A stretch of DNA of 64,000 bases. It comes from Dermabacter sp. Lineage in GTDB: Bacteria; Actinomycetota; Actinomycetes; Actinomycetales; Dermabacteraceae. Positions 3-49,626 of the stretch are shown piece by piece; within the stretch, counting starts at the first letter, position 1, and the number at the start of each line of letters is the position of its first letter. Below the pieces are notes generated by a model. The model did no database searches. It worked only from the letters and a program-made list of their open reading frames with translations, and was not told the DNA's origin. A program made the translations under genes and the position numbers. The DNA is taken from positions 62,001-126,000 of the forward strand of contig JAUNTX010000003.1 in the NCBI GenBank assembly GCA_030538475.1, given 5' to 3'.

Positions 3-1988
3 CAGCTGCGGGACGGCCTCGCCCCGGTCGAATCGATTGCCCGCGCCACCGCCACGAGCGGCAGCGCCGTCATCTTCGCGGGTATGACCGTCATCATCGC
101 GCTCGTCGGCCTGTTCCTCACCCAGATCCCGTTCCTCACGGTCATGGGTATCGTCTCCGCGCTCGCCGTCGGCGTCAACGTCATCGCCGCCCTCACCCTC
201 CTGCCCGCGATCCTGGGCCTGTTCGGCGAGCGGATCCGGCCCCGCAAGCAGCGCGAGAAGGCCCGCGCAGCCGCTTCGACCGACTCCCCCGTCGGCCGCC
301 GCTCCTTCCGCCTCACGTGGGTCCGCGCCGTCACGAAGTTCCCGGTGCTCACCATCGTCCTCGTCATGCTGGGCCTTGGCGCCGTGGCCCTGCCCGCAAA
401 GGACCTCGGGCTCGCCCTACCCGATCAGGGGACCGACGCCGCGGGGACCACCACGCGCGAGGCCTACGACATCATTTCGGACAAGTTTGGCCCCGGCTAT
501 AACGCGACGATCATGCTCACGGCCGACATCATCAACACGACAGACCCACTCGGCGTGGTGGACACCCTGAAGGAGGACATCGAGGGCATCGACGGCGTGC
601 AGAGCGTCCAGCTGGCCACGCCCAACCGGGGCGCCGACATGGCCGTCGTGGTGCTGCACCCCGAGGAAGGCCCCTCGTCCGAATCCACGAAACAGGTGGT
701 GCAGGAACTGCGCGGCCAGGCCGGAGCGTGGGAACGCGAGCTGAAGATTTCCGACATCACCGTCACGGGCTCCACCGCCATTGCCATCGACATCACCGAC
801 CGCCTCTCGGCCGCGCTCTTGCCCTTCGGCATCTTCGTGGTGGGCCTCAGCCTCGTGCTTCTCGCGATGGTCTTTCGCAGCATGTGGGTGCCCCTCAAGG
901 CCGCCGCCGGATTCCTCCTCTCCATCGGCGCCGCGTTCGGCGTGACTTCGATGGTCTTCACCTACGGCTGGGGCGCCGATCTCCTGCACGTCGCGAGCAC
1001 CGGGCCGGTCATCTCGTTCCTGCCGATCATCGTCATGGGCGTCCTGTTCGGACTCGCCATGGACTACGAGGTGTTCCTCGTGACCCGCATGCGCGAGGAG
1101 TACATTCACGGGCGCGACGCCCGCGCCGCCATCGAACGCGGCTTCGTGGGATCCGCGCCGGTCGTGATCGCCGCCGCGGCCATCATGGTGTTCATCTTCG
1201 CGAGCTTCATTCCCGAATCCACCTTCATGATGCAGCCCATCGCCCTGGCGCTGGCCGTGGGCGTATTCGTGGACGCCTACATCGTCCGCATGACGCTCGT
1301 GCCCGCGATCCTCGCCCTACTGGGCGATCGCGCGTGGCGCTTCCCCGCCTGGCTCGACCGCCTGCTCCCCCACATGGACGTGGAGGGCGAGGGCCTCGCC
1401 GTGGCGCTCGAGCACCGCGACTGGAGCGAGAAGCACGGCGCCGCCGCCGTCCGCTTGAAGGACGTGAGCGCGCCGATGCTGGATGGCCACGGAACGCTCG
1501 GCCCGCTCGCGGGCGCGCTGGATCCGGGAAGCATCACCCTCGTAGCAAGCGAGGACCGAGCCGCCCGCGACACCTTCCTCGCGCTCGCCGCCGCGAGGCT
1601 CGAGCCCACCCACGGCACCGTGTTCCTCATGGACCGCCAGGTGCCCGGGGAAACCGCGGGAGCCCAGAAGCACACGGTCCTCATCAGGGACGATGTGCGG
1701 CGGCGACTGCGCGACGCCTCCACCGACACCCGCCCGGGCATCATCTACGTGCTCGACTCCCTCAATGCCGTCATGGAGGCGGGAAGCGAGGCCACAGACA
1801 CGCTCGCGAGGCGGGTGCGCCAAGGCGCCACGGTCGTCATCGGGCTCGACACCGACCCCGACCGCTTCCTCGACGCGCTCCCCGACGCGAGCGTCTGCAC
1901 CATGCTTGACCTCGACAATCTCCAGGGGATCGACTCCCCCATCCTGCCTGCACACACCACGCCCGACACCGCGGAGGCACGCTCATGA
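3..1988 (+). CDS. MMPL/RND-family transporter with ABC-ATPase-like C-terminal tail (5' partial)
   Basis: This is the C-terminal 661 residues of an MMPL-type membrane transporter, which would move lipids or drugs across the cytoplasmic membrane using the proton gradient. The reading frame is open from base 3, before the first ATG at 84, and already matches the conserved MMPL stretch ending IFAGMTVIIALVGL, so the gene begins outside the window. A full second half follows: TM pair, extracytoplasmic loop (bases ~400-790), then a cluster of five or so TM helices with the family motif GLAMDYEVFLVTRMREEY near base 1055. After the last TM (base ~1330) a further ~200 residues resemble an ABC ATPase in layout (ITLVASEDRAARDTFLALAA where a Walker A would lie, then EPTHGTVFL, then IIYVLDSLNAV) but have no GKS/T. 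It overlaps the next gene by ATGA. Substrate unknown. Confidence 0.88.
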   Translation, partial: QLRDGLAPVESIARATATSGSAVIFAGMTVIIALVGLFLTQIPFLTVMGIVSALAVGVNVIAALTLLPAILGLFGERIRPRKQREKARAAASTDSPVGRRSFRLTWVRAVTKFPVLTIVLVMLGLGAVALPAKDLGLALPDQGTDAAGTTTREAYDIISDKFGPGYNATIMLTADIINTTDPLGVVDTLKEDIEGIDGVQSVQLATPNRGADMAVVVLHPEEGPSSESTKQVVQELRGQAGAWERELKISDITVTGSTAIAIDITDRLSAALLPFGIFVVGLSLVLLAMVFRSMWVPLKAAAGFLLSIGAAFGVTSMVFTYGWGADLLHVASTGPVISFLPIIVMGVLFGLAMDYEVFLVTRMREEYIHGRDARAAIERGFVGSAPVVIAAAAIMVFIFASFIPESTFMMQPIALALAVGVFVDAYIVRMTLVPAILALLGDRAWRFPAWLDRLLPHMDVEGEGLAVALEHRDWSEKHGAAAVRLKDVSAPMLDGHGTLGPLAGALDPGSITLVASEDRAARDTFLALAAARLEPTHGTVFLMDRQVPGETAGAQKHTVLIRDDVRRRLRDASTDTRPGIIYVLDSLNAVMEAGSEATDTLARRVRQGATVVIGLDTDPDRFLDALPDASVCTMLDLDNLQGIDSPILPAHTTPDTAEARS

Positions 1989-4375
1989 CCACGCATCTTT
2001 CCAAGCTCCCCAAGGCCCTCATCGTGGTGCTGCTACTCCCCCTCCTGGTCGCGGGGATCGGCGTGTGGGCCCTCAAGGACCGCGCCGAGGCGCTCTCCAG
2101 GGTTCCCGCGGCCGTGGTCAACCTCGACGAGGGCGCCGAAATGGAGGTCGATGGCGTCACGCAGACGGTGCCGTTTGGCCGGATGCTCGCGGGGGCGCTC
2201 ACGCAGCCCGGCACCGCCACGTCCGGGTCCGCCTCCACCGAGGGCGCGCTCGGGGCCGACGGCAATGCAAGCGCGGGATTCGACTGGCGCCTGACCACCG
2301 AAGCCGACGCCACCAAGGGCCTCAAGGACGGCACCTATTCCGCGATCGTCTACATCCCGAAGGACTTCAGCGCGCACCTGGCCACAATGGGCACGAAGGA
2401 CGCCACGCAGGCCACGGTGACGATCACGACGAACGACGCCTCGGGCCTCCTGGACTCCCTCGCGGGCCAGGCGATTGCCCAGGTCATCACGTCGGAGTTC
2501 AACAACGAGATGGCCCAGCAGTACCTCGAAGGCGTCTACCTGGGCTTCAACTCCCTGCAGGACGGGTACGAGCAGGCGGCGACCGGCGCCACCCAGCTCG
2601 ACGAGGGCGTGGTGAGCCTCGACAGCGGCGCCACCGAACTCGAGGGCGGTGCACGGCAGCTGAGCGAGGGCACGAGCACGCTCGCGACCGGCACGAACAG
2701 CCTGGCGGGCGGTACGCGCGGCCTCGCCACCGGCGCGCGCCAGCTCTCCGGGGGCCTCGGCCAGCTCGCTCGCGGCGCCGACCAGGTGGCCACGGGCACC
2801 GAGAGTCTCGAGGCGGGGATCAATGGCGATGGCACCGCCCAGAACCCGGGCCTGCGCGGCGGGGCGCAGCAGCTCGCGAACGGGGTCAATGGCGATGGGA
2901 CCGCTGAGAATCCCGGCCTGGAGGCAGGTGCCCAGCAGCTGGCCGACGGCCTCCAGACCTACGCCGACGGGACCGTCCTGGCCAAGGAGCAGTTGAACCA
3001 AGGCCTGAACGACGGCGTCGAGGCCGTCTTCACGACGCCCGCCGAGCCGGGCGGCCAGAGTTTCGAGGCGGGCCTTGACGCGCTTGCCGAGCAGTGCACG
3101 ATGGCGATCCAGGGTTCGGGGGGCGATCCCGAGTCCGCGGCTGCCCAGCAATTCTGCGGCGGACTCCAGCAGACCTCTGAGTCGGTACCCAAAATCAAGA
3201 GCGGCATCAAGGACGACGTGATTGGCGAGGGAATCAGCGCCGCCTTCGGGTCCCGAGACAAGCCAAATCCGCAGACCCTGATTACTGGCGCGGACCTACT
3301 GGCAAGCGGCGCGCAGGTCTCGGCCGAGAGAACCCCCGAACTGGTGGGCGGCATCAACGAACTCAACGGCGGCATCGCGCAACTGGGCGATGGGGCGCGC
3401 GAGTTGGCGCCGGGCGCCCGGCAGATCGCCGACGGCCTGCAGTCCTCGAGCGCGGGGGCCCGCACACTGTCTGGCGGCGCGGATGAGCTATCGACGGGCG
3501 CGGGCGCTCTCGCCACGGGCGCGGGCGAGCTCGCGGTCGGGGCGGACTCCCTGAGCGGTGGCGTCACGGCGCTGTCCGAGGGGACAACTGAGCTCGCGGG
3601 CGGGAGCGGGGAGCTGGCCGAGGGTCTGCGCGAGGGCGCGGCCGCCGTGCCCACCTACACCGACGAGGAGCGCGCGCAGCTCGCGGCAACGAGCGCCGAG
3701 GCCGTCTCCCTCGACGCCGTGCGCGAGCACGAGGTCAACGGGGGCTCGACCGCGACGTTCCCGTTTGCCGCGGCGCTCGGCCTCTGGCTCGGCGCCTTCG
3801 GCATCTTCCTCCTCTGGCCCGCTCTGCGACCGCGGCTCGTGGATTCGGCCCTGCCGATGTGGCGGGTGGCCCTCGCCTCCCTGATTCCCGCGGTGATCGC
3901 GGCGGCGGTGCAGGCCGTCCTCGTGCTCGGGATGCTCGTGGCCTTCGGCGTGCAGGTCCGCTCCCTCGTGGCGGTCGCCGCCGTCACGCTCACCTCCGCC
4001 GTGGTGTTCGCGGCCGTGCACCAGATGCTGCTCACCGTATTCGGGGTGAAGCTCGGGCGCATCATTTCGGTCATCGTGCTCGTGCTGCAGGTGGTCGCGC
4101 TCGTGGGGATCGTGCCGCTTGAGACGGCGCCGCCACTCCTGCAGTCGCTCACGGCGCTCATGCCGCTCACGGTGGCCACGCAGGGCCTCGTCCACGCCGC
4201 GCTCGGCGGGGCGATCATCACGACGGGCGGCACACTCGGGCTCCTCGCCCTATTCGGCCTAGTGAGCTTCGCGCTCACCCTGGTGGCCTCGCGCGGGGCG
4301 CGGCTCCTCTCCGCGGCGCGCCGCTCCCCCACCCGGCCCGAGCCGGGCGCGGGAATGTCGGCCCACATGGCGTGA
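1985..4375 (+). CDS. YhgE/Pip family membrane protein
   Basis: This 796-residue protein has the architecture of the YhgE/Pip (phage infection protein) family: one N-terminal TM helix (residues ~12-30), a long extracytoplasmic region, and about five C-terminal TM helices (residues ~600-780). The middle (residues ~195-560) is a long series of degenerate repeats of the form LxxGAxxLxxG, typical of the family and probably an elongated helical stalk. Two copies of an insert reading NGDGTAxNPGL lie at bases ~2818 and ~2887. It starts inside the stop codon of the MMPL gene (ATGA), so the two are translationally coupled and probably act together in the envelope. YhgE-like proteins are often annotated as ABC-2-type or type VII secretion-related, but their biochemical role is not settled. 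The family call is firm; the function is not. Confidence 0.88.
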   Translation: MTTHLSKLPKALIVVLLLPLLVAGIGVWALKDRAEALSRVPAAVVNLDEGAEMEVDGVTQTVPFGRMLAGALTQPGTATSGSASTEGALGADGNASAGFDWRLTTEADATKGLKDGTYSAIVYIPKDFSAHLATMGTKDATQATVTITTNDASGLLDSLAGQAIAQVITSEFNNEMAQQYLEGVYLGFNSLQDGYEQAATGATQLDEGVVSLDSGATELEGGARQLSEGTSTLATGTNSLAGGTRGLATGARQLSGGLGQLARGADQVATGTESLEAGINGDGTAQNPGLRGGAQQLANGVNGDGTAENPGLEAGAQQLADGLQTYADGTVLAKEQLNQGLNDGVEAVFTTPAEPGGQSFEAGLDALAEQCTMAIQGSGGDPESAAAQQFCGGLQQTSESVPKIKSGIKDDVIGEGISAAFGSRDKPNPQTLITGADLLASGAQVSAERTPELVGGINELNGGIAQLGDGARELAPGARQIADGLQSSSAGARTLSGGADELSTGAGALATGAGELAVGADSLSGGVTALSEGTTELAGGSGELAEGLREGAAAVPTYTDEERAQLAATSAEAVSLDAVREHEVNGGSTATFPFAAALGLWLGAFGIFLLWPALRPRLVDSALPMWRVALASLIPAVIAAAVQAVLVLGMLVAFGVQVRSLVAVAAVTLTSAVVFAAVHQMLLTVFGVKLGRIISVIVLVLQVVALVGIVPLETAPPLLQSLTALMPLTVATQGLVHAALGGAIITTGGTLGLLALFGLVSFALTLVASRGARLLSAARRSPTRPEPGAGMSAHMA

Positions 4376-4380
4376 GACTG

Positions 4381-4410
4381 CCGGTTCTCCCGCGGGCGCG
4401 GGAGAACCGG
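4381..4410 (+). terminator. Perfect inverted repeat just after yhgE
   Basis: Two 14-base arms, CCGGTTCTCCCGCG and its exact reverse complement, are separated by two bases and start 5 bp after the yhgE stop. The hairpin is very stable. There is no T-tract, so it may act as a Rho-independent terminator of the non-canonical actinobacterial kind or as an mRNA 3' end stabiliser. Its right arm is also the first unit of the tandem repeat array that follows. Confidence 0.5.
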
Positions 4411-4490
4411 GGCGTGCGCGGGAGAACGGGGGCTTGTGTGTGAGAGCAGCTGCGAGTCTGGGAGAACTAGCGCAGGCGCGGGAGAACCGG
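4391..4490 (+). repeat. Tandem array of five degenerate 20-bp units
   Basis: The core GGAGAAC recurs at 4401, 4421, 4461 and 4481, exactly 20 bp apart with one degenerate unit (TGAGAGC) at 4441. Best units are CGCGGGCGCGGGAGAACCGG (4391) and CGCAGGCGCGGGAGAACCGG (4471). The array fills the space between the yhgE stop and the promoter region of the sialic acid operon. Its role is unknown; it could be a local duplication of the hairpin arm. Confidence 0.75.
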
Positions 4491-4537
4491 AACCGGCACG
4501 CGAAAAACTCACGAGCCGTTTGGTAAAAACTCGGCAA

Positions 4538-4652
4538 AAGCGCCTCCATGGTCGTCGGACCTCTGATGTCGGATGTATGGTTGGGCTACGTGATTCGATC
4601 AAGTCGGATCACCCCATACCGATTCATTGACGAATCAAGGAGACGATCAACC
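4538..4652 (+). promoter_or_regulatory. Probable promoter/operator region of the sialoglycan operon
   Basis: This is the only sizeable gap before five co-directional sugar-uptake genes, so the operon promoter should lie here. An interrupted inverted repeat GATTC-N6-GAATC lies at 4621-4636, immediately before the ribosome binding site AAGGAG (4637-4642), and could be an operator. I see no convincing -35/-10 pair. Confidence 0.35.
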
Positions 4653-6002
4653 ATGGTTCAGGTATCCCGCCGCACCGCCCTTGTATCCACCGCTGCCGCC
4701 AGCGCCGCCCTGTCCCTTGCCGCATGCGGCGAGCGCCCCGGCTCCACCGGCGCCTCCGACGGCGGGGGCTCCGCACCGACCAAGGGCGCGCTCAACCTGT
4801 GGCACCCCTACACCCAGCCCGAGCGCCAGGCCGCTCTCCAAAAGGTTTTCGACGCGTACACGGCCGAAACCGGCGTCGAGGTCAAGGCCGAAGTTGTGGC
4901 CTTTGGTGACTTCCCGAAGCGCTGGCCGTCGGCCCAGGCGTCCAACACCCTGCCCGACATCGCCATCACGACCCCCGAGGTCGCCATGTCGATGTGGACG
5001 GCGGGCGCCGTGGAGTCGATGGACGACATCATCTCCGATGCCGGAGGCGAGGGCCTCTACGTGGACGGCCTGCTCGACCGCACCTCGCGTTATGACGGCA
5101 AGCTGTTCTGCCTGCCCCACTACGTTCACACGCGCCTCATGCACGTGCGCACTGACCGCCTCGCCGAAGCCGGCCTGAGCATGCCGAGCACCATGCCGGA
5201 GTTCCTGACCGCGGCCGAGGCCATGACCAAGGCACCCGACTACTACGGCTTCATTCCCCAGCTCTCGCAGAATGACGTGGGCGGCTCCTACCTCCTGTGG
5301 ATCATGGCGCAGGCCAACGGCGCAAGCCTGTTCACGAAGGACGGCAAGGTCACGCTCACCGATCCGGGTGTCGTGGACGCCGCTAACTGGCTCGGCACGA
5401 TCACGAAGAACGCTGCCCCCGCCTCGGCCGCCACCACCCCCATTTCGGAGACCTTCAACCTCATCAACTCCGGCTCGGCCTCCATGGCCACCACGTCGGC
5501 CGCCGGTATCGCCTCCGCTCTCGCCGAGGCACCCGAGGTCGCGGCGAATCTCGACGCCGTTCCCATGCCGAGCGGATCCGCGGGCGTCGGCAACCTCATC
5601 GGTGCCGTCTCCGTGGTCAAGCCCAAGACGAAGAACACCGTGGATGCCGGGGCGTTCATGAAGCTGCTGCTCCAGAAGGACCTCTACACCGAGTTCCTCC
5701 TGTGCCTGCCGCTGTTCCACTTCCCCGCCACGAAGGACGGTTCGGGTAGCGAGTTCTACGCCAACGAAACCATCACCCGCTACAAGGGCGCGGTGGACGC
5801 GACGATCGAGGGCATCGCCGAAGGTGCAGCCCCCGGCTTCGAGGAAGGCGCGAACCCCTACTCGGGCTCGTTCTTCTCCGCCGGTCGGATCGAAAAGGCC
5901 CTGCAGGACGTCGCCTTCAACGGGATCAGCGCGGCCGACGCCATGAAGTCCGCCCAGGACGACCTGCAGACCACGCTCGACGGCATTACAGAACGGCTCT
6001 GA
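4653..6002 (+). CDS. ABC transporter substrate-binding lipoprotein, family 1 (probable sialic acid/sialoglycan)
   Basis: This 449-residue protein is a family 1 extracellular solute-binding lipoprotein that would capture a sugar outside the membrane and deliver it to the permeases encoded next. The start at 4653 is chosen because AAGGAG lies 10 bases upstream; a longer open frame from 4548 has no such site and would bury the signal peptide. The N-terminus VSRRTALVSTAAASAALSL-AAC has a twin arginine, a hydrophobic core and a lipobox with Cys at residue ~26, so export by Tat followed by lipidation is likely. The motif LNLWHPYTQPERQAAL near residue 48 is typical of family 1. The same gene order (binding protein, two permeases, sialidases) is seen in Sat-type sialic acid transporters, so sialic acid or a sialylated glycan is inferred from context. 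Confidence 0.85.
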   Translation: MVQVSRRTALVSTAAASAALSLAACGERPGSTGASDGGGSAPTKGALNLWHPYTQPERQAALQKVFDAYTAETGVEVKAEVVAFGDFPKRWPSAQASNTLPDIAITTPEVAMSMWTAGAVESMDDIISDAGGEGLYVDGLLDRTSRYDGKLFCLPHYVHTRLMHVRTDRLAEAGLSMPSTMPEFLTAAEAMTKAPDYYGFIPQLSQNDVGGSYLLWIMAQANGASLFTKDGKVTLTDPGVVDAANWLGTITKNAAPASAATTPISETFNLINSGSASMATTSAAGIASALAEAPEVAANLDAVPMPSGSAGVGNLIGAVSVVKPKTKNTVDAGAFMKLLLQKDLYTEFLLCLPLFHFPATKDGSGSEFYANETITRYKGAVDATIEGIAEGAAPGFEEGANPYSGSFFSAGRIEKALQDVAFNGISAADAMKSAQDDLQTTLDGITERL

Positions 6003-6008
6003 TTCACC

Positions 6009-7010
6009 ATGGCTGACTCTTCCACGCCACTCAAGGACGGGCGGCCCGCCTCGGCGCCGTCGCCCGCCCTCTCGCCAAAGAACATTGGTGCCCCTCGCCG
6101 CCGCTCCGTGCGCCAAAAGGGCGTCAAGGGCTTCCTCGACCATCACTGGGTGGCCATCTTCCTCATTCCCGGGATGCTGTGGATGGGCGGCCTGCTCGCC
6201 TACCCGATCCTTATGAACATCTGGCAGAGCCTCACGAACAAGAACCTTCAGTTTGCGGACTCGAAGTTCGTGGGCGGGAGCAACTACCTGTGGGTGCTTC
6301 AGGACGCGACGTTCTGGCAGGCGGGCATGCACTCGATTGTGTGGACCGTCGTCTCCGTCACGGGCCAGCTCCTCATTGGGCTCGCCGGTGCATTGGCCCT
6401 CGAACGGGTCTCGCAGGGACGCTGGCTCTACCGGCTCCTGCTCATCCTGCCGTGGACGTTCTCGTCCGTGGTCATGGCGGCTGTCTGGCGCCTCATGCTC
6501 GATGCCCTCTACGGCATCATGAACGGCTACCTGACCTGGGCCAATATCATTGACCAGCCGCTGTCGTGGTTCGGCGATGCCCGAACGGCCCTCGGTTCCG
6601 CCATCGTCGTCAACATCTGGTTCGGCGTCCCGTTCATGCTGCTCTCGCTCGTGGCGGGCCTCCAGACCATCTCCAAGGACCTGTACGAAGCGGCATCGGT
6701 GGACGGTGCGGGTTATTGGCGCCAGGTCTGGAACATTACGATTCCGGGCCTCGCCCCGATCATTTCCACCCTCGTGGTTCTTCGAACAATCTGGGTGGTC
6801 AACAACTTCGACATCGTCTTCCTCACCACCGGAGGCGGACCCTCCAACGCGTCGATGACCCTTCCGGTCTACGCCTACAACGTGGGCTGGGCGCAGTTTG
6901 AAGTGGGCAAAATGGCGGCGATCTCCGTGATCCTCACGGTGGTCCTGCTGATCCTTGCCCTCGTGTACTTCAAGGTCGTTGACGACAAAGTTAGCCACGC
7001 GGAGGACTGA
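6009..7010 (+). CDS. ABC sugar transporter permease (MalF-like)
   Basis: This 333-residue inner-membrane protein is the first permease of the sugar importer. A basic N-terminal tail (~45 residues) precedes about six TM helices. The cytoplasmic EAA loop, which docks the ATPase, is visible as EAASVDGAGYWRQVWNITIP (residues ~230-250). It lies 6 bp after the binding-protein gene and 5 bp before the second permease, so all are one transcript. No ATPase gene is present in the operon; as in many actinobacteria and firmicutes a shared MsmK/MalK-type ATPase encoded elsewhere probably energises it (inference). Confidence 0.93.
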   Translation: MADSSTPLKDGRPASAPSPALSPKNIGAPRRRSVRQKGVKGFLDHHWVAIFLIPGMLWMGGLLAYPILMNIWQSLTNKNLQFADSKFVGGSNYLWVLQDATFWQAGMHSIVWTVVSVTGQLLIGLAGALALERVSQGRWLYRLLLILPWTFSSVVMAAVWRLMLDALYGIMNGYLTWANIIDQPLSWFGDARTALGSAIVVNIWFGVPFMLLSLVAGLQTISKDLYEAASVDGAGYWRQVWNITIPGLAPIISTLVVLRTIWVVNNFDIVFLTTGGGPSNASMTLPVYAYNVGWAQFEVGKMAAISVILTVVLLILALVYFKVVDDKVSHAED

Positions 7011-7015
7011 CAGCA

Positions 7016-7882
7016 ATGAATACTTCCAGCACAGCCCCCGCCAAGCGTCGGCGCCGCAGCATCCAGAAGCCCGGGTTTGGTGCGCACGCACTGCTCATCG
7101 TCATGAGCGTGTTTGCCGCCTTCCCCCTCGTGTTCATGGTGCTCACCTCGATCAAGCCCTTTGGTGAGATCTACACGTTCCCCCCGGCGTTCTTCCCACG
7201 AAATCCCACGACCGCGCAGTACGACCAGCTGCTTACCACCACGGACTTCATGTGGCTTGTGGGCAACAGCCTGTTCGTGTGCCTCACCGCCACCGGTATC
7301 ACGACCATCCTCGCCTCGACGGCCGGGTACGCGCTCGCTCGCTCCCGGTTCCGCGGCAGGATCCTCCTGCTGCGAGGCACACTGCTCGCCTACATCTTCC
7401 CGCCCGTGCTCATCGTGGTGCCCCTGTTCACGATCTTCGCGGCGGCAGACCTCGCCAACTCCTACACGGCTCTCATCGCCGCGTATGTCATGTTGACGTT
7501 CCCGTATGCCGTCTGGATGCTCACCTCGTACTTCGCGAAGATTCCGAAGGCTATCGAGGAGGCCGCCACGATCGACGGGTGCTCGCCGTACCGCACCTTC
7601 TGGACCATCGCGGTGCCGCTCGTCGGCCCTGGTATCGCTGCCGTCACGATCTTCTCGTTCATCAACACGTGGAGTGAGTTCCTGTTCTCGCTCGTCATCG
7701 TGGGTGGCGGCGACAAGCGCACCGTGTCCGTGGGGCTCCAGCAGTTCCTCTCGGGAGACGTGGCCCAGTGGGGTCTGCTCATGGCAGGCAGCGTCATCGC
7801 GCTCGCACCGGTGATCGTCCTGTTCCTCATCTTCCAGCGTCAGATCATCGGCGGCCTCACCAGCGGCGCCGTCAAAGACTAA
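7016..7882 (+). CDS. ABC sugar transporter permease (MalG-like)
   Basis: This 288-residue membrane protein is the second permease of the importer. It has about six TM helices, the MalG-type N-terminus with a SIKPFGEIYTFPPAFFP stretch (residues ~45-60), and the EAA loop EEAATIDGCSPYRTFWTIAV (residues ~180-200). It would form a heterodimer with the preceding permease. It is followed after 26 bp by the sialidase gene, which ties the transporter to sialic acid. The specific substrate cannot be read from the permease itself. Confidence 0.93.
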   Translation: MNTSSTAPAKRRRRSIQKPGFGAHALLIVMSVFAAFPLVFMVLTSIKPFGEIYTFPPAFFPRNPTTAQYDQLLTTTDFMWLVGNSLFVCLTATGITTILASTAGYALARSRFRGRILLLRGTLLAYIFPPVLIVVPLFTIFAAADLANSYTALIAAYVMLTFPYAVWMLTSYFAKIPKAIEEAATIDGCSPYRTFWTIAVPLVGPGIAAVTIFSFINTWSEFLFSLVIVGGGDKRTVSVGLQQFLSGDVAQWGLLMAGSVIALAPVIVLFLIFQRQIIGGLTSGAVKD

Positions 7883-7908
7883 TCACCCCCATCGAAATGG
7901 AGAAAGAC

Positions 7909-10197
7909 GTGTCGTCTCACGACGAAACTTCCAGCCCTACCCCCACCACCGACTCCCCGAGCGCCCCCGTGGCAGCCTCGAGCGTGAGCCTGCGGTTCCG
8001 TTCCTCTGCCGACGGGCCACTGCTTGTGCGCGAAAGCCTCGATGGGAGTGGGAGTCTGGACCTCGCGATCCGCGAGGATCACCTCGTGCTCACCGTGAGC
8101 TACGAGGGAGAGAGCAGGGTGCTGGATGCCGAGGACGCCGATCATCTCAGCGACGGCATGGAGCACGCCGTCACGGTGACCGTCGGCCCCACGGGGACGC
8201 GCCTGTACCTCGATGGCTACGAAGTCTTTTCCTCCACCTCGGTGCTTCCACTGCCCGCCCCGTCGGCCTCGCGTCAGGTGCTCGGGGCGCCCGGCTCCCC
8301 CGTCGTGGACGGGCTCGAGGACGCAGCGCTGGAACTCGGTGGAGAGGCCATCCTTGCCGCCGTGCCCGCACCGGAGCCTTTCGTCGAGTTCGCTGCCGCG
8401 TTCCTCTCCCCCCGTGATGCGAGCCGCGTGGGCGCGCTGCCCAAGGGCTCGCTGCGCGCTCGGTTCCGCGTGCGGGGCGAGGGCCAGGGCGGAGTGATCG
8501 TGCAGGGCGCGAGCGCCGACGGCGCGCTCACCCTCGCGATCATCGACGGCAGCATCGACTACCGGGTGACGGACGCGACCGGGGAGGCGATGCACATCCT
8601 CGCCCCCGGCCGGTGGGACGATGGCAACTGGCACGACGTCGTGGTGACGAGCGGGTACGGCGCCACCACTCTCTACGTGGACGGTTACCAGGTGGGACGC
8701 GCCGCGGGCGTCTGCTTCTTCGCCGACGCCGGTGCCGTGGATCGGGTGAGCGTGGGTCAGGACTGCGAGGGCTCGCGCCTCTTTGGCGAGGCCCACGTGG
8801 CGATGATCTTCAGCGACGTGCTGTCGGAGCGTCACGTCAAGCGCATGGCCGGGGTGGCGCCGCTCGCCTCGACCGCCCTGTTCGACACCGGGTTCGAGGG
8901 CTCGCGCAGCTACCGCATCCCCTCCCTTCTCACGACCGCGAGCGGCGTGGTCATCGCCGGTGCCGATCAGCGCACTTCGATTGCCAACGACAGCCCGAAC
9001 CACATCAACTTCGTGGTGCGTCGAAGCCTCGACGGCGGCCACACCTGGGGGCCCCTGCAGACGGTGATCTCCTCCGTGGGCAGCGGCGCCAAGGGCGCTT
9101 CCGTGATCGACTCCCTCCTCGTGCAGGACCGCGACTCGGGACGCATCATCGCGCTCATCGACCACTTCCCCGGCGGCGTCGGCCAACCCAACGCCTCCGC
9201 CGAGATCGGTACCGACGAGGACGGCCGCCCCGTCCTGTACGACCGCGACGGGGCCCGCTACACGGCGCAGGCCGACGGCTCGATTCTTGACGCCGACGGG
9301 GACGAGACCGCCTTCACGCTCGGCGCCGACGGCATCGTGCGCGAGGGCGAGCGCGACCTCGGACACGCGGACCTCTACCCGCTCGCCGACGGCGCACCGC
9401 CCCTGACGAGCGCCCCCACGAGCTACCTGTGGATGGTCACGAGCGACGACGACGGCACCACCTGGTCGGATCCCGTGGACCTCACGCCCTCCCTCAAGCT
9501 GCCGTGGATGCGCTTCTTCGGCACCTCCCCCGGCACGGGCATTCAGGTGCGCGAGGGCCGCTACGCGGGCCGGATCGTCATGCCGATCTACTACAACCGC
9601 GAAGAAGGCGTCACGTTCTCGTGCGCCGTCGTCTACACCGACGATGCGGGCGAGACCTGGCACCTGGGCGAATCCCCCAACGACGGCCGAGCGCTGGGCG
9701 GCAGCATCCTGCACTCCCGGACCCTGACCGACGACCAGGCGTCCCTGCACGAATCCACGGTCGTGGAAACGGGCCCCGACGAACTGCTCGTGCTCATGCG
9801 CAACCAGCACGTCTCGGGCCGCGTCGCGGTGGCCCGCAGCCACGATGGCGGCCACAGCTGGGGGCCCGTGACCTTCGACGAGGAACTCACCGAGATTTTT
9901 AGCCAGCCGAACGCCATCGAGGTCGAGTTGACCGGCGGCGAGGGTCGAGCCATCGTGTTCGCCAACGCCTCCCAGATGCTGCCCTTCCGCGGATGCGGGG
10001 TGCTGCGCATGAGCAAGGACGGCGGCCACACGTGGCCCCATAACCGAGTGTTCAATCCTCGCCACTACGTCTACCAGTCGATGACTCAACTACCCGACAG
10101 CTCGATCGGGCTGCTGTGGGAGCGCGAATGGCACGGCCTGTTTTTCACCGCGGTACCGCTCGCCTGGCTCGAAGCCTCGCAGAGCACCATCAGCTAG
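7909..10197 (+). CDS. Sialidase (GH33), no signal peptide, probably cytoplasmic
   Basis: This 762-residue enzyme should hydrolyse terminal sialic acids from glycans. I chose the GTG at 7909 because GGAGA ends 5 bases upstream; an ATG at 7897 would add four residues. Two concanavalin A/laminin G-like modules (residues ~22-110 and ~160-320) precede the catalytic propeller. The propeller shows the YRIP arginine motif (residues ~335-338), the DQR stretch after it, Asp boxes of the SxDxGxTW type near 373, 511, 577, 644 and 702, an insertion domain (~410-500), and a C-terminal VYQSMTQLPDSSIGLLWE bearing the expected nucleophilic Tyr region (~720). No signal peptide or anchor is visible, so it may cleave imported sialyl-oligosaccharides inside the cell. 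It is clearly paralogous to the next gene. Confidence 0.93.
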   Translation: MSSHDETSSPTPTTDSPSAPVAASSVSLRFRSSADGPLLVRESLDGSGSLDLAIREDHLVLTVSYEGESRVLDAEDADHLSDGMEHAVTVTVGPTGTRLYLDGYEVFSSTSVLPLPAPSASRQVLGAPGSPVVDGLEDAALELGGEAILAAVPAPEPFVEFAAAFLSPRDASRVGALPKGSLRARFRVRGEGQGGVIVQGASADGALTLAIIDGSIDYRVTDATGEAMHILAPGRWDDGNWHDVVVTSGYGATTLYVDGYQVGRAAGVCFFADAGAVDRVSVGQDCEGSRLFGEAHVAMIFSDVLSERHVKRMAGVAPLASTALFDTGFEGSRSYRIPSLLTTASGVVIAGADQRTSIANDSPNHINFVVRRSLDGGHTWGPLQTVISSVGSGAKGASVIDSLLVQDRDSGRIIALIDHFPGGVGQPNASAEIGTDEDGRPVLYDRDGARYTAQADGSILDADGDETAFTLGADGIVREGERDLGHADLYPLADGAPPLTSAPTSYLWMVTSDDDGTTWSDPVDLTPSLKLPWMRFFGTSPGTGIQVREGRYAGRIVMPIYYNREEGVTFSCAVVYTDDAGETWHLGESPNDGRALGGSILHSRTLTDDQASLHESTVVETGPDELLVLMRNQHVSGRVAVARSHDGGHSWGPVTFDEELTEIFSQPNAIEVELTGGEGRAIVFANASQMLPFRGCGVLRMSKDGGHTWPHNRVFNPRHYVYQSMTQLPDSSIGLLWEREWHGLFFTAVPLAWLEASQSTIS

Positions 10198-10236
10198 TCC
10201 GTTGATTCGGACCTGACGACAGCACAGGAGTACATC

Positions 10237-12753
10237 ATGGAGATTTCCCGCCGACGGTTCGGTTTCCTTGCGGGGGCCGGATCGGTCACCGCCGCGGCAG
10301 TGGCCGCGAGCCCGCTCCCCGCCCACGCGGCACCCGGGACGCTCGCGCTCGCTGGCCCCTACGTGCTCGATGGCTCCGCTGCTCGTCAGGTCGACGACCT
10401 GGGTGCCCTGCGTGGAGCCACGCGCGGCACGCTGGGTCTGCGGTTCAGTGCCACCCGTGGGACGGGGCGGCAGGTCCTGCTGTCGCTGCGGTCCCCGTCC
10501 ACGGGCAAGGGCCTCACGTTCGGCCTCGAGAAGGGAAACCTCTTCGCTGCGATCGATGCTCCGGACGGCTCCGCCCCCACTCTCACGTGGCCGGTACGCT
10601 CGGACCGCGAGGGCGATCTGGCGGATGGCCACCCGCACTACGTGGCCTGGTCCGTCGGGGACAAGGGAACCGAAATCTCCGTGGGTGGCGTCCCCGTGCA
10701 TTGGGGAACGTCGCAGGCGTTCTTCGACCAGGTTCCTGCCGACGCCGTCCCGCTGCTCGGGGGCGAGCACGATGGGCAGGCGGTGACGTCACTGTTTGCC
10801 GGCACGATCGATCAGGTGTCGTGGAGCGATCACCAGCTCTCCGAAACGGAGATCGCCGCCCTGCATCCAGCCCTGGACACCGCTGAAAAGTGGACCCCGA
10901 TGACCGCCTACGCGCCCTCCACGGCGCTCAAGAACCGTCTTCCGGAGGTTGCGGGGATCGAGGCGTGCGCCGAAGGGACCGTCCACGCCGAGTTCCAGAC
11001 CACGCACACCGGCCTCAACACGATCCTCAGTGCAGGTAATACCGGGGCTCCGTCGACCAACTTCACGGTCGCCGTCAAGGGCGGCGCCCTGCTCGTCGAG
11101 GTCCGCTCCAACGGCACGAGCTTCGCGAACTTCTCCGTACCGGGGCACTGGAATGACGGCAAGCGGCACACCGTCACCGTCACCGTGTCCGCCACCAAGG
11201 GACTCGTCCTCTACGCCGATGGCTCACAGCTCGAACGACACACCAAGGCCCCGTTCTTCGCCTCGCTTGCCGGAATGAACGGCCTGTGGATCGGTGGAAA
11301 TCGCGACGATTCCGGCGACCAGTGGCAGTTCACCGGCCAGATCGGAGGCGTGAAGCTGTTCCGGCACGGCCTCCTCGAGCCGGAAGTTCGCCGCTTGCAC
11401 GGCCCGGCACCCACGACAACCCGCGCCCTCTTCGACATCGGCTACGCGGGCTCCGCCAACTACCGGATTCCCTGCCTCCTGCGCACCTCGCGCGGGACCC
11501 TCATCGCCGCCGCGGATCAGCGGCGCGCAAACCCGTACGACAGCCCCAACGACATCAACCTGGCCATTCGCCGATCCACGGACGAAGGCCGCACCTTCTC
11601 CGACGCAGATGTTGTCCTGGACTACCCCGGAGAAGGCTACGACGGGGCATCGGTGATCGATAGCGTGCTCGTCGAGGACCGCGGACGCGGATCCATCGTC
11701 TGCGTCGTCGATCGTTTCCCCGGCGGCGTGGGTCAGGGACAGGCCGTGACTGGCACGGGCTTCACGAGCGATGGCGAACAAATCCTGAAGGACAACTCAG
11801 GCGCCTCGTTCCTTCTCAAGGCCGACGGCAGTGTCACGACCGACGCTGGCACGCCCACGGATTACACGGTGGGGGCCGACGGCGCCGTCACCAAGGCAGG
11901 GGCTCCCGCGGGCAATATCCACCTCAAGGCGGGGACCGACCCCCAGCAGAGCCTGCTCGAGGCACGCACCTCCTACCTCGTGATGGTCCGCTCTACCGAT
12001 GACGGACAGACCTGGAGCGCTCCGAGCGACCTCACCCACCAGGTCAAGGCCGACTGGATGCGCTTTCTCGGCACCGGCCCAGGCAGCGGCATTCAGTTGC
12101 GTCACGGCGCGCAGGCGGGGCGACTCCTGGTTCCCGTGTACTTCAACAATGAACGGGCCAGTGCCGGCATCTACTCGAGCGCGGTGATCTTCTCCGACGA
12201 TGGCGGCGACACCTGGAAGCTGTCCACTTCCCCCAACGACGGCCGGACCCACAACGGGGTCACCTACACCTCCCGCACCCTCACCGTGAATGCGCTGGCC
12301 ACCCACGAACCCACGGTGGCCGAACTGAGCGATGGGCGCGTGGTCATGCTCATGCGCAATCCCTCCGGACGTATTCTGCGTTCGTTCAGCGCCGACGGTG
12401 GCTCCACGTGGTCCCTGCCTGATCGCCTCGAAGCGGTCCCGGATGTGTTCTCACAACCGAACGCCCTGACGTGGGATCCGGACGGCGATGGCGAGTGCCT
12501 CCTGTTTGGCAATGCCAGCCGCCGGTATCCCGGCCGCGACGGGCGCAATGGCCGCGGCACCGGCGTGATTCGCCGCTCCTACGACGGCGGCGATACGTGG
12601 GACCGCAACCGGGTGTTCCGCCCTGACTGCTACGTCTACAACAATCTCGCGCAGATGGGCGATGGGAGCATCGGCCTTCTGTGGGAGCTGGAGTGGGATG
12701 GCATCTACTTCACTCAGCTGCCCTGGTCGTGGCTCGAGGACTACGGCGCCTGA
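10237..12753 (+). CDS. Sialidase (GH33), Tat-exported
   Basis: This 838-residue enzyme is the secreted counterpart of the previous gene. The N-terminus ISRRRFGFLAGAGSVTAAAV has a twin-arginine motif and ends in AHA-A, a signal peptidase I site near residue 32, so export by Tat is likely. AGGAG lies 8 bases before the ATG. Two laminin G-like/CBM40-type modules (residues ~40-190, ~215-390) precede the propeller. YRIP is at residues 409-412, Asp boxes STDEGRTF, STDDGQTW, SDDGGDTW, SADGGSTW and SYDGGDTW follow, with an insertion domain (~490-570) and the terminal YNNLAQMGDGSIGLLWELE. There is no C-terminal sortase signal, so it is presumably released or held by its binding modules. It is last in the operon, 39 bp after the first sialidase. 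Confidence 0.94.
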   Translation: MEISRRRFGFLAGAGSVTAAAVAASPLPAHAAPGTLALAGPYVLDGSAARQVDDLGALRGATRGTLGLRFSATRGTGRQVLLSLRSPSTGKGLTFGLEKGNLFAAIDAPDGSAPTLTWPVRSDREGDLADGHPHYVAWSVGDKGTEISVGGVPVHWGTSQAFFDQVPADAVPLLGGEHDGQAVTSLFAGTIDQVSWSDHQLSETEIAALHPALDTAEKWTPMTAYAPSTALKNRLPEVAGIEACAEGTVHAEFQTTHTGLNTILSAGNTGAPSTNFTVAVKGGALLVEVRSNGTSFANFSVPGHWNDGKRHTVTVTVSATKGLVLYADGSQLERHTKAPFFASLAGMNGLWIGGNRDDSGDQWQFTGQIGGVKLFRHGLLEPEVRRLHGPAPTTTRALFDIGYAGSANYRIPCLLRTSRGTLIAAADQRRANPYDSPNDINLAIRRSTDEGRTFSDADVVLDYPGEGYDGASVIDSVLVEDRGRGSIVCVVDRFPGGVGQGQAVTGTGFTSDGEQILKDNSGASFLLKADGSVTTDAGTPTDYTVGADGAVTKAGAPAGNIHLKAGTDPQQSLLEARTSYLVMVRSTDDGQTWSAPSDLTHQVKADWMRFLGTGPGSGIQLRHGAQAGRLLVPVYFNNERASAGIYSSAVIFSDDGGDTWKLSTSPNDGRTHNGVTYTSRTLTVNALATHEPTVAELSDGRVVMLMRNPSGRILRSFSADGGSTWSLPDRLEAVPDVFSQPNALTWDPDGDGECLLFGNASRRYPGRDGRNGRGTGVIRRSYDGGDTWDRNRVFRPDCYVYNNLAQMGDGSIGLLWELEWDGIYFTQLPWSWLEDYGA

Positions 12754-16370: not shown

Positions 16371-18131
16371 TTAGTCATAGCAGCCCTCCACGCTCCACTG
16401 GCCCGCGTCGGACAGCAGGACGAGGCCGTCTCCGCTGTCCAGGGCGATCTGGAGGCGCGCCCCGCGGTGGGCGGAGGGCTGCGTGGGCGCCCACCATTGT
16501 TGATCGAGGATGACGGGGGCGCTGTGGAGCGCGATCTCGAGGGGCCTTTCACGCGGCAGGTGGGCGAGCGCGGCCGGCAACGGGTGCTCGCTTTCGCGCA
16601 CGAGGACGAGCGTGGCGGGGGCAGCATTCATGAGGCCCCGCGCCTCGACGTGCACCGGGGCGCCATCGCTATCGAGGAGGCGGGCCGCGGGCCTGCGCGC
16701 AAACACCGTGGTGGGCAGGGGACGCGGCAGCCGGCCCGGCCACGGCCCCGCGGGTTCGTGAGGCTCGGTACCGGAGCGAAACGGCACGGTGCCCGCTGCC
16801 TCCGCGAGGAGTCTGCCGCCGCCCGTCGTGGGTACGAGGACGGCGTTTTCGCCCGCGAGGGACTGGATGCGGGTGAGGGCGCGCGCCGCCCGCACGGCCA
16901 TGCTGCCCGCCTGCCCCCAGAGCGCGGGAGCGTGCAGGCTCGCGCTCGCCAGCTGGAGCGGAATGAGCTGCAGGTGCGTGATTGCGCCCGCCTCTCTGCC
17001 TCGGGCCGTCCTTGCCGCGGTGGCCGCTGCATTCGCGGTCCCCGCTCCCCCGCCCTCGCGTGTGCCGCGGGCGGCCACTTGCATGGCGCTGATCCAGCCG
17101 TCGCACTGCCAGCGCACGCGATCAACGATGTCGCTCGTGCTGAGCGCGCCGTCGTGGCGCCACGTGCGCTCCACTTCGTCGCCGTGCTCTGTGCGCGCCA
17201 CGATCCGCAGCCGCGTACACGCCGCGCCCCGTTCGCGCAGCACCCGGTCCAGTTCTTCGGCCATGGGCCGCGCCACGAAGGCCGCCTGATCCATGCGTTC
17301 GAGTGGCGGATCGAGCGCGCGCTCCACGAGGATCGGCTGCGGCGGGCGAATGCGCGGCGGCTCCGCGGGCTCCTCCCCGCGGGATAGAAGGTGCAGCAGC
17401 GCCACCTCCGCACCGAAGCGTTCCTGCACCGAGGCGGCGGGAAGCGCAGCGAAGTCCCCGAGCGTGGCAATGCCGAGTCGCCCCAGCAGGTCAATGACCT
17501 CGGCCCGATCCACGGGCGCGTGCGCACCGCGCCGCGAAGGCGTCAATCGCGCGCTCTGACCCACGGGGGCGTGGGCGAGCGCGGCGATGGGATGCGGGGC
17601 CAGGAAGCGGGCCGAGGCCCCTTCATGGATGCGCCTGCCGGTGAGGGAGGCGAGAATGGCGGCAAGGGGGCCGTCGGCGATTCCCACGGTGCATTCCCAC
17701 CCGGTGAGATCGGCAACGGCATCCACGAGAGCCTGGGCGAGCAGTTCTTCCCCACCGGCGTGGCGCGCGGGGCCGCGCGCGTGCATGAGCAGCATCCCGG
17801 GCGCGAGTGCTTCCACTCCGGAGGCGACGGTATCCACGGCGGCAGCTACGGCCTCGAAGATCACCCATTCGGTATCGCGGTCGCGTTCGGCGCGCATGAG
17901 TCCGGGGCAGAGCGCTTCGGCGCTGCGTTTCTTCATCCCCACCTCGACGCCCGCGGCGGCAGCGGCCGCGGAGACGGCGATGATCCGGTGGTTCTCGATC
18001 ACCGCAAACTCCTCGGGCACGGTCTCATCCGCGCGCTCGCGCGCCTCGATGGCGGCCACGAGCGGCCACGCGGGCACGCGCACGCACGCCGTCCGGGTCG
18101 TGGTGGCAGCCGTAGCCTCGGGCGGCGCCAT
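16371..18131 (-). CDS. imuB: ImuB-like inactive Y-family polymerase
   Basis: This 586-residue protein has a Y-family DNA polymerase fold but lacks catalysis. In active enzymes a DxDxFFAxVE motif opens the protein; here the equivalent is VRVPAWPLVAAIEA (residues ~12-25), and the SxDE motif of the palm is replaced by LLMHARG (near 110). That is the hallmark of ImuB, which bridges DnaE2, ImuA' and the sliding clamp. A helix-hairpin-helix segment (~210-245) and little-finger-like region (~270-370) follow, with a long C-terminal tail containing ALWG, possibly a clamp-binding element. The ATG overlaps the imuA' stop (TGATG), so the two are translationally coupled. Confidence 0.9.
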   Translation of the reverse strand: MAPPEATAATTTRTACVRVPAWPLVAAIEARERADETVPEEFAVIENHRIIAVSAAAAAAGVEVGMKKRSAEALCPGLMRAERDRDTEWVIFEAVAAAVDTVASGVEALAPGMLLMHARGPARHAGGEELLAQALVDAVADLTGWECTVGIADGPLAAILASLTGRRIHEGASARFLAPHPIAALAHAPVGQSARLTPSRRGAHAPVDRAEVIDLLGRLGIATLGDFAALPAASVQERFGAEVALLHLLSRGEEPAEPPRIRPPQPILVERALDPPLERMDQAAFVARPMAEELDRVLRERGAACTRLRIVARTEHGDEVERTWRHDGALSTSDIVDRVRWQCDGWISAMQVAARGTREGGGAGTANAAATAARTARGREAGAITHLQLIPLQLASASLHAPALWGQAGSMAVRAARALTRIQSLAGENAVLVPTTGGGRLLAEAAGTVPFRSGTEPHEPAGPWPGRLPRPLPTTVFARRPAARLLDSDGAPVHVEARGLMNAAPATLVLVRESEHPLPAALAHLPRERPLEIALHSAPVILDQQWWAPTQPSAHRGARLQIALDSGDGLVLLSDAGQWSVEGCYD

Positions 18132-19018
18132 CACTTCCCCCTCACGAGGGTGAGCGGCGCAGATGCGGGTGTAGGTGCAGATACCGGCACGGGCGAAGTT
18201 TCGGGCACGGGCACGAGCGTGAGGGCGGGGCCTCGCGAAACCACATGATCGACAGCGGCGACAGGGGCCACCCCGCGGGTCGGCAGGGAACGCACGGTTG
18301 CGGGGGCGGGCGCGACGGATGCCAGCATCCCCGTCACCGTCGGCAACCGCACATCAATGCCCGCCTGCCCCGGCGCGACCGCCTTGCCCGCGCTCGTGAG
18401 GTGCACGCGGCGAAAGCGGATGCGCCCGCTCCCGCACGCAAGACCGCCCCACGCCACATGGCGACTGGAGATCTTCAGATCGGAGCGCTCGTCACCACTC
18501 GTGGAGGCCATGCGCACGAGCAGCGATCCCTGGGTGCGTGCCCTCGCCGTGACGGAACGCCACAGGGCGGGCGGCAGCTCCATGTCTTCACCCATGACCA
18601 CCACGTCGATACCGTCCACGAGGGCGGAGAGGGCCGCGCCCGCGTGCGCCCCCGGCGTGGGAACAAGCACCGTTCGGGAGGGATCAATTCCCAGGTCCCC
18701 GAGCACGCCAATCCCCACGTGGGGCATCCCCACAAGCGCACACCACGACTCTTCCCCCATCGCCGCGCCCGCGAGGCTGAGCGCCACCGACGTGCGGCAG
18801 GCCCCGGCAATGCCCACGCTGCTGCCGGGCCTCAGCCCCCGCTCCGGCATGATCTGGGCGAGCGGCGCAGGAACGGGAAACCCCTGCACCTGCAGGGCAT
18901 CGTCGCGAGGCTGCGCCGGGGCGGAGGCGCTGCGTGCCGTCTTTTCCTCCGCCCGCCCCAGAACCTCCTGGGCCAGCGCCAGCCGCTGGGCACGCACATC
19001 GATAGCAGCGACGCTCAT
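18131..19018 (-). CDS. ImuA'-like RecA/SulA-related protein of the SOS mutasome
   Basis: This 295-residue protein occupies the ImuA' position in front of imuB and dnaE2. It has a RecA-like fold outline: GSSVGIAGACRTSVALSLAG (around residues 68-87) sits where RecA has its Walker A but lacks the GKT/S residues, and DVVVMGEDMELPP (~145) takes the Walker B position. It is therefore probably not an ATPase and works as a structural partner. I chose the ATG at 19018 because GAGGGGAGG lies 10 or so bases upstream; the upstream GTG at 19039 would place that site inside the gene and put the LexA box only 6 bp away. It is first in the SOS operon. Confidence 0.85.
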   Translation of the reverse strand: MSVAAIDVRAQRLALAQEVLGRAEEKTARSASAPAQPRDDALQVQGFPVPAPLAQIMPERGLRPGSSVGIAGACRTSVALSLAGAAMGEESWCALVGMPHVGIGVLGDLGIDPSRTVLVPTPGAHAGAALSALVDGIDVVVMGEDMELPPALWRSVTARARTQGSLLVRMASTSGDERSDLKISSRHVAWGGLACGSGRIRFRRVHLTSAGKAVAPGQAGIDVRLPTVTGMLASVAPAPATVRSLPTRGVAPVAAVDHVVSRGPALTLVPVPETSPVPVSAPTPASAPLTLVRGK

Positions 19019-48748: not shown

Positions 48749-49626
48749 CGATCCTCCGAGTAGTGGGAATCGATAGACGAGGGCAATTCGATGGGGGCCG
48801 GGGCATCGTCGATCTGACTGGCCTCATCCACACTGAGCGCGCCCTGCTCCTTCACGCGCTTGCGCTCGCGCCGACGCTCGAAGACGTAGCTCACGCCCAC
48901 CGCACCGAAGAACAGGAGGATGAACGGCGAGGTGACGAGGAACAGGGTGATGGGTTCGGGAGTGGGCACCATGACGGCGGTGAAGACGAAGCTGAGGAAG
49001 ATCGCCCAGCGCCAGCCCTTGATCATCTTCTTGACCGGGAGCATCCCCACCATGTTGAGGCCCACGAGGAACACGGGGTAGATGAAGGCGATGCCGAAGA
49101 TCATGCAGGTCTTGACCACGAGCTCGATGTAGTCGCGGAACTCGACGAGCTGGTAGACGTCCTTGTTCGGTCCGAACGTCATGAGGATAGGGATCGCTCG
49201 CGTGATGGCGTAGTAGCCACCGAGGATGCCCGTGAGAAAGAGCGGGAAGGCGGCCAACACGTAGCCGAGCGCGTACTTGCGCTCTTGCGCGTGAAGGCCC
49301 GGCATGATGAACAGCCACGCTTGCAGCATGATCATGGGGATGCTGAGCGCCACGCCGATGTACGCGGCCAGGCGCAGGTGGGTCTCGAAGCTTCCGCCGA
49401 CGCCGCCGATGTTGATCTGCACGTTGTAGCCGGTGATGCGCAGTTCCCTGAACGGAACTGCGAGCAGCTCGTATACCGGGTAGTACAGCCACCAGCCCGC
49501 CACAGAGAACAGGACCACGGTGATCGCCACGATCACGAGGCGATTGCGCAGCTCGATGAGGTGGTCACCGAGCGTCATCCGCCCTTCACTGTTCTTGGGG
49601 GTGCGCTGCTTCTTTTTTCTTGCCAC
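48745..49626 (-). CDS. tatC: Sec-independent protein translocase subunit TatC
   Basis: This 293-residue protein is the signal-peptide receptor of the twin-arginine translocase. Six TM helices are visible, with the family N-terminal motif MTLGDHLIELRNRLV (residues ~17-31) that binds the twin-arginine signal, and the conserved Phe/Glu region FEVQ-like segment replaced here by VGGSFETHLRLAAYIG (~70-90). A basic N-terminal tail of ~16 residues and a charged C-tail of ~50 flank the core. The start is a GTG with a weak ribosome binding site. It follows tatA and is coupled to the lipid kinase gene. Confidence 0.95.
   Translation of the reverse strand: MARKKKQRTPKNSEGRMTLGDHLIELRNRLVIVAITVVLFSVAGWWLYYPVYELLAVPFRELRITGYNVQINIGGVGGSFETHLRLAAYIGVALSIPMIMLQAWLFIMPGLHAQERKYALGYVLAAFPLFLTGILGGYYAITRAIPILMTFGPNKDVYQLVEFRDYIELVVKTCMIFGIAFIYPVFLVGLNMVGMLPVKKMIKGWRWAIFLSFVFTAVMVPTPEPITLFLVTSPFILLFFGAVGVSYVFERRRERKRVKEQGALSVDEASQIDDAPAPIELPSSIDSHYSEDR

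Follow-up and report, generated by a model that had tools for sequence, protein, structure and literature searches.

A Dermabacter operon joining a CUT1 importer to a signal-less and a Tat-signal-bearing sialidase, downstream of a candidate sialic-acid operator

The window analyzed here is a stretch of 64,000 nucleotides from Dermabacter sp. (assembly GCA_030538475.1, contig JAUNTX010000003.1, positions 62,001 to 126,000; contigs are written below as C with a number, this one being C8), from a genome of 2.53 Mb in 13 contigs. At window positions 4653-12753 it carries five tightly spaced genes, all on the + strand and separated by gaps of 6, 5, 26, and 39 bases, which we read as one operon. Open reading frames (ORFs) and Pfam matches uphold the gene content given by an earlier, sequence-only reading of this DNA: a substrate-binding protein (SBP) with a lipoprotein signal for twin-arginine translocation (Tat), two permeases, a sialidase without a signal peptide, and a sialidase with a Tat signal. 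The operon genes, the candidate operator that precedes them, and the tatC gene of the window are as follows.

4555..4573, strand not assigned: candidate NanR-type operator TCGGACCTCTGATGTCGGA, in which the TCNGA half-site occurs three times at steps of 7 bases
4653..6002, + strand: Tat lipoprotein SBP of the CUT1 class (Pfam SBP_bac_1); ATG at 4653 after GGAG
6009..7010, + strand: CUT1 permease, UgpA/MalF type (Pfam BPD_transp_1)
7016..7882, + strand: CUT1 permease, MalG/UgpE type (Pfam BPD_transp_1)
7909..10197, + strand: sialidase 1, signal-less and predicted cytosolic, two LamG domains and a GH33 propeller (Pfam BNR_2, LamG; AlphaFold model)
10237..12753, + strand: sialidase 2, predicted Tat-exported, with Tat signal, LamG domains, and GH33 propeller (Pfam BNR_2, LamG)
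48925..49566 (C8:110925-111566; window coordinate = C8 minus 62000), - strand: tatC, core of the Tat translocase needed for export

The SBP_bac_1 protein and the two MalF/MalG-type permeases identify the first three genes as a CUT1 importer of the ATP-binding cassette (ABC) type, and the SBP N-terminus, MVQVSRRTALVSTAAASAALSLAAC, is a Tat lipoprotein signal. The two sialidases differ at their N-termini. Sialidase 1 starts at GTG 7909 after GGAG (the alternative in-frame ATG at 7897 alters nothing), and its N-terminus, MSSHDETSSPTPTTDSPSAPVAASSVSLRF, runs straight into a LamG domain with no signal peptide; in its AlphaFold model residues 1-20 are of low confidence and no N-terminal helix is present. 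Sialidase 2 begins with MEISRRRFGFLAGAGSVTAAAVAASPLPAHA, a Tat signal made up of twin arginines, a hydrophobic stretch, and Ala-x-Ala, and with TatC encoded in the genome it is a predicted Tat substrate. Among 26 members of the sialidase-1 family from very different genera (L017, whose reading frame is broken, was left out of this count and of the tree below), none combines twin arginines with a hydrophobic stretch in its N-terminal region. Hydrophobicity alone failed as a signal test, and separation needs the combination with twin arginines: five sialidase-1-type rows (L010_s1, L013, L090, L091, and L094) score 1.63-1.79, against 1.68 for sialidase 2, their high values coming from stretches inside or leading into LamG. 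These signals and the gene order support, as a prediction, the proposal of the sequence-only reading that two sialidases act in two compartments beside a CUT1 importer, sialidase 1 in the cytosol and sialidase 2 outside. The same reading had called Tat export unusual for a sialidase. For this genome that view is not supported: Tat export is routine here, all five lipoprotein SBPs inspected having twin arginines, and the Kocuria orthologue of sialidase 2 has them as well; published work on Tat-exported sialidases did not appear in a literature search judged by its listings.

Both enzymes retain the GH33 arginine triad, Asp, Glu, and Tyr when read against NanI, residues that we take to have their usual catalytic roles. 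Sialidase 1 has the full set of GH33 marks (propeller, RIP arginine, Asp-boxes, and the conserved Asp, Glu, Arg, Arg, and Tyr), and sialidase 2 is a GH33 enzyme by its sequence. The idea that sialidase 1 is degenerate is not supported, its catalytic residues being intact and its model confident (mean pLDDT 82.8). That model fits best to Clostridium perfringens NanI (Z 53.7, 2.2 Å over 428 residues), followed by NanA (Z 52.4), with a Z of 45.1 for the intramolecular trans-sialidase RgNanH of Ruminococcus gnavus. This comparison of folds, based on a predicted structure, leans toward a hydrolytic enzyme rather than an intramolecular trans-sialidase.

A CUT1 importer is commonly, if not obligatorily, encoded together with its ATPase. 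The operon contains no ATPase, nanA, nanE, or nanK, as the sequence-only reading had said and as ORFs, Pfam, and genome searches bear out; in the whole window the genome searches found no NanE, DHDPS-family gene, or OB_MalK ATPase. Both an MsmK-type ATPase and nan genes, which that reading had proposed to look for, are present elsewhere in the genome. The genome has exactly one OB_MalK ATPase, at C6:88578-88721, an orphan with no adjoining transporter gene that scores 476.8 bits against UgpC (cut-off 432). C12 holds at least one further CUT1 set that likewise has no adjoining ATPase. The role of this UgpC/MsmK-type ATPase as the shared energizer of the CUT1 importer is well supported, the pairing itself being something that we infer.

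Genome-wide there are a single NanE and two genes of the DHDPS family, and one of the two adjoins NanE on C7 (nanA at C7:103774-104661, nanE at C7:105842-106426). This C7 cluster contains a GntR-type regulator, a SatABCD-type importer (Tat-lipoprotein SBP_bac_5, permease, and ATPase genes, named by similarity and order), NanA, NanK (a ROK-type gene, assigned from position and similarity), NanE, and a DUF4862 gene. Here, and not at the operon, nanA, nanK, and nanE fall within 10 ORFs of each other. The regulator scores 78.9 bits against NanR, under the cut-off of 260, and the stretch examined around the cluster holds no sialidase-1 orthologue. Treating the missing catabolic genes as a feature of the operon, as the earlier reading did, is thus misleading, since a full nan cluster lies on C7 and is tied to the operon by a common promoter motif. 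As a separate observation, a DUF4862 gene recurs in or beside sialic-acid loci, at 11 loci including this genome (L028 10556-11437, L039 14579-15490, and nine more).

The common motif has a core of two half-sites, TCNGAYRTCNGA, at 4562-4573, 79 bases upstream of the operon; a third half-site at 4555 continues the 7-base spacing. The core occurs once in the 64 kb window (0.32 expected from shuffling), and the form with three half-sites has an expectation of 0.0016 for the window from base composition. A 398,119-base sample of this genome gave no TCNGAYRTCNGA site (about 0.87 expected). Stretches around sialic-acid loci and other selected loci, 97,006 bases in all, gave two, one before SatA of the nan cluster and the other 11 to 26 bases upstream of where a sialidase on C4 starts, such that all three sites in the roughly 558 kb examined in this genome precede sialic-acid genes. 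The motif was written from the sites of the window, the nan cluster, the C4 sialidase, and a genome of the same genus, G041, which are therefore not independent; 24 loci of relatives are. In these (472,035 bases), 13 of 14 sites lie at most 500 bases upstream of sialidase, nan, Sat, or regulator genes, in upstream zones that total 29,004 bases and were anchored on tblastn match starts rather than start codons, where 0.09 sites were expected from base composition only. In one of them, L040, the motif stands 37 bases before a gene of the major facilitator superfamily (MFS) and about 380 before the sialidase. Because the motif is common to the operon, the nan cluster, the third sialidase, and the sialic-acid genes of relatives, the operon probably belongs to a NanR-like regulon, as judged from DNA sequence, and it shares an operator with the nan cluster. 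In the stretches compared, the motif was not present before the orphan ATPase nor before an operon on C12 with a cytosolic sialidase. A TCNGA operator was not found in print, in a literature covered in part that does not take in the Bifidobacterium breve NanR paper (Egan 2015). In the window, no sigma-70 promoter was found, and Rfam gave no match.

The third sialidase, on C4 (L029 8553-10931), is exported and has a NEW3-type domain after the catalytic part; its orthologue in G041 adjoins a nan cluster. A candidate fifth sialidase, at C6:104044, is below the Pfam cut-off and reads as a GH32-like protein.

Sialidase 1 occurs in 3 of the 47 genomes of the family, this one included, and the SBP at E 1e-50 in this one only. 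Among 396 genomes of the order, sialidase 1 has matches at 1e-80 in 17 and the SBP at 1e-60 in 3, counts for which two (sialidases) or up to four (SBP) candidates were scored per genome, so that misses are possible. A search of the order with sialidase 2 returned the same 17 genomes, and because its matches outside this genome fall at sialidase-1-type places, the only close orthologue seen is that of Kocuria sp. 36 (47% identity). In the tree there are two old sialidase clades: sialidase 1 groups with the G041 enzyme (100/98) and Kocuria sialidase 1 (100/99), and sialidase 2 with Kocuria sialidase 2 (99/99), the far C4 and C12 rows being on very long branches. Each enzyme thus groups with its own Kocuria counterpart, and local duplication as the origin of the pair is rejected.

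Signal-less sialidase 1 is a member of a widespread actinobacterial family. Three members of the order with small genomes (G276, G313, and G402) presumably resemble Gardnerella NanH1 in size. In 25 loci of relatives, the family has nan or Sat genes nearby in 14; the G041 orthologue lies inside a nan cluster, and in G330 the order is SatABCD-sialidase-CUT1-NanA-NanK-NanE. The permeases of G330 are 37-40% identical to those of the window, and CUT1 sets of G157 and G310, with no sialidase nearby, are 52-55% identical. Since the latter are closer to the window's permeases than those of G330, the sequence identities suggest that the association of sialidase with CUT1 may have arisen twice.

We interpret the operon as a sialic-acid-responsive scavenging system that couples exported cleavage to sialoside import and cytosolic trimming under NanR-like control, an interpretation to which we give an even chance. 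Outside the cell, Tat-exported sialidase 2 would trim host sialoglycans and release sialic acid. The CUT1 system (the lipoprotein SBP, two permeases, and the single UgpC/MsmK-type ATPase) would bring in a saccharide that bears sialic acid, most probably a short sialylated oligosaccharide, from which cytosolic sialidase 1 would remove the sialic acid. The main entry for free sialic acid would be the SatABCD-type importer encoded apart from the operon, in the nan cluster; NanA, NanK, and NanE would degrade sialic acid from both pools. The presumed NanR-like regulator beside that cluster would, in response to its presumed ligand, probably repress the operon, the nan cluster, and the third exported sialidase via TCNGAYRTCNGA. 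Import of intact sialosides is plausible and unproven.

Several observations weigh against this interpretation. No copy of the motif is found in 15 of the 24 relatives' loci. That of Kocuria is one of these, and there a different palindrome, which by eye is TAGGACGTCCTA-like, may stand in its place. The operon has no galactosidase or hexosaminidase for the remainder of an imported glycan. The nearest relatives of the SBP (41-42%) lie beside permeases and Gfo/Idh genes with no sialidase. Gardnerella NanH1, probably a member of the sialidase-1 family, shows little activity on 4MU-Neu5Ac in the parts of the report covered (PMC11388281). The strongest grounds for caution concern the substrate of the cytosolic enzyme, which may arrive by other routes, since relatives of sialidase 1 often adjoin monosaccharide symporters: 9 of the 25 loci have nearby a sialate:H+ symporter of the MFS, whose class transports monosaccharides, and one (G330) has a CUT1 importer. 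They concern the cargo as well, because the CUT1 class also includes importers of N-acetylneuraminic acid (Neu5Ac) and 2,7-anhydro-Neu5Ac. One SBP relative, L047, was considered as a pointer to NanOx; its neighborhood fails to identify the SBP ligand because the two Gfo/Idh proteins there have inositol dehydrogenases as their nearest matches, none of which reaches its cut-off.

The frequent symporter neighbors also count toward the alternative that fares best, in which the CUT1 system, like SatABC or SatXYZ, imports a monosaccharide (Neu5Ac or its anhydro form) supplied by the exported sialidase, and the cytosolic enzyme, carried along from nan clusters, acts on minor substrates. In the published accounts as far as they were covered, the pneumococcal CUT1 system SP1681-3 imports sialic acid (PMC3302838), R. 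gnavus SAT2/SatXYZ imports 2,7-anhydro-Neu5Ac (PMC10017367, PMC10955332), and Li and Huang place in ST7 the SBP_bac_1 transporters that occur in actinobacterial nan clusters (PMC8754123). We nonetheless consider this alternative unlikely, if a serious contender: the SatABCD-type importer of the nan cluster already serves free sialic acid, the operon has no NanOx-like gene, the genetic partner of SatXYZ/ST7 anhydro-sialic-acid importers (the genome has four Gfo/Idh genes, among which there may be a NanOx), and both sialidases are nearest to the hydrolytic NanI and not to intramolecular trans-sialidases.

A second alternative, which we judge improbable, has the importer take up what remains of glycans once the exported sialidase has desialylated them, with sialic acid entering solely via the nan cluster. 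The usual cargo of CUT1 systems is neutral oligosaccharides, and the solved SBPs that come closest in sequence include one that binds acarbose/maltose; remnant import, however, leaves the cytosolic sialidase of the same operon without a substrate, and the operon has no glycosidase for the remnants. Non-classical export of sialidase 1, or its release by lysis, would have both enzymes act outside and is very improbable: its LamG domains do resemble those of secreted glycan-binding enzymes, yet the 26-member signal count and the nan or Sat neighbors of its family argue otherwise.

A broader form of the scavenging interpretation is tentative, and we think it somewhat more apt to fail than to hold. 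Here the operon would supply the missing importer partner of the widespread signal-less actinobacterial sialidase (Gardnerella NanH1/Actinomyces type), with two parallel sialoglycan routes (cleave outside; import, then cleave), both under an undescribed NanR operator, TCNGA-N2-TCNGA, across several actinobacterial families. Signal-less sialidases occur in many host-associated actinobacteria; according to a 2024 paper, covered in part, Gardnerella NanH1 may act inside on uncharacterized substrates or be inactive (PMC11388281). An operon in which such an enzyme has an importer of its own and an exported counterpart allows its role to be tested directly. The operator motif, in turn, would make the sialic-acid regulon readable from sequence in related genomes and reveal pieces of it outside the nan cluster, which surveys based on clusters (PMC8754123) would miss.

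Other features were observed around these loci. Upstream of the operon lie an MMPL gene and a YhgE-like gene, and downstream a convergent gene for an error-prone DNA polymerase. In the product of the MMPL-type transporter gene (window 84-1988), the C-terminal 200 residues have no Pfam match and look by eye like a worn ABC ATPase. At 4380-4510, in the gap that separates the YhgE-like gene from the operon, GGGAGAAC-like units repeat at exact 20-base steps (six copies listed, 65-100% alike), and there is a perfect hairpin of 14 bases. The C12 operon (L030, C12:157000-176000; 799-10150) is a second importer operon with a signal-less GH33 enzyme and without the common motif; it contains Opp-type ABC genes, a GntR regulator, a 524-residue sialidase with intact catalytic residues, and a 517-residue protein that matches nothing in Pfam or NCBIfam. 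A CRISPR-like array in the same stretch (17800-19001) has at least 16 copies of repeats of about 36 bases at 70-74-base steps and runs to the end of the stretch.

The operon is a new arrangement of known parts. No description of this gene combination in one operon away from nan genes was found in the published accounts covered, which report CUT1 genes in six actinobacterial nan clusters (PMC8754123). The nan locus of Kocuria sp. 36 (L010) has an orthologue of each sialidase, of which one lacks a signal and the other bears a Tat signal; there, however, the pair is divergent and lies inside a SatABCD-nanAKE locus with an MFS symporter, not with CUT1. To our knowledge, SP1681-3 (SatABC) of Streptococcus pneumoniae does not share an operon with a pair of sialidases of which one is intracellular and one exported. 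It resembles the present system, as far as its description was covered, in being a CUT1 sialic-acid importer without an ATPase of its own, energized by MsmK, with one CUT1 ATPase per genome (PMC3302838). C. perfringens, whose NanI is the nearest solved catalytic domain, has an intracellular NanH and secreted NanI and NanJ under sialic-acid control, but in the account consulted in part its sialidase genes are apart from the nan operon and from each other, with a different promoter repeat (PMC4509764). Gardnerella NanH1 is likewise a signal-less GH33 enzyme with lectin-like domains, but is reportedly nearly inactive on 4MU-Neu5Ac and has no known importer partner in the portions of the published accounts covered (PMC11388281, PMC10940449). 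Bifidobacterium longum subsp. infantis has the intracellular sialidases NanH1 and NanH2 in a sialic-acid cluster (PMC10298468, PMC10629584) and, by the descriptions covered, shares with Dermabacter signal-less actinobacterial sialidases of similar size (NanH1 83 kDa), a reading of import followed by cleavage, and an ABC importer with nan genes. Those descriptions mention no exported partner, whereas the Dermabacter operon has a CUT1 importer, includes a Tat-exported sialidase, and leaves the nan genes to another contig.

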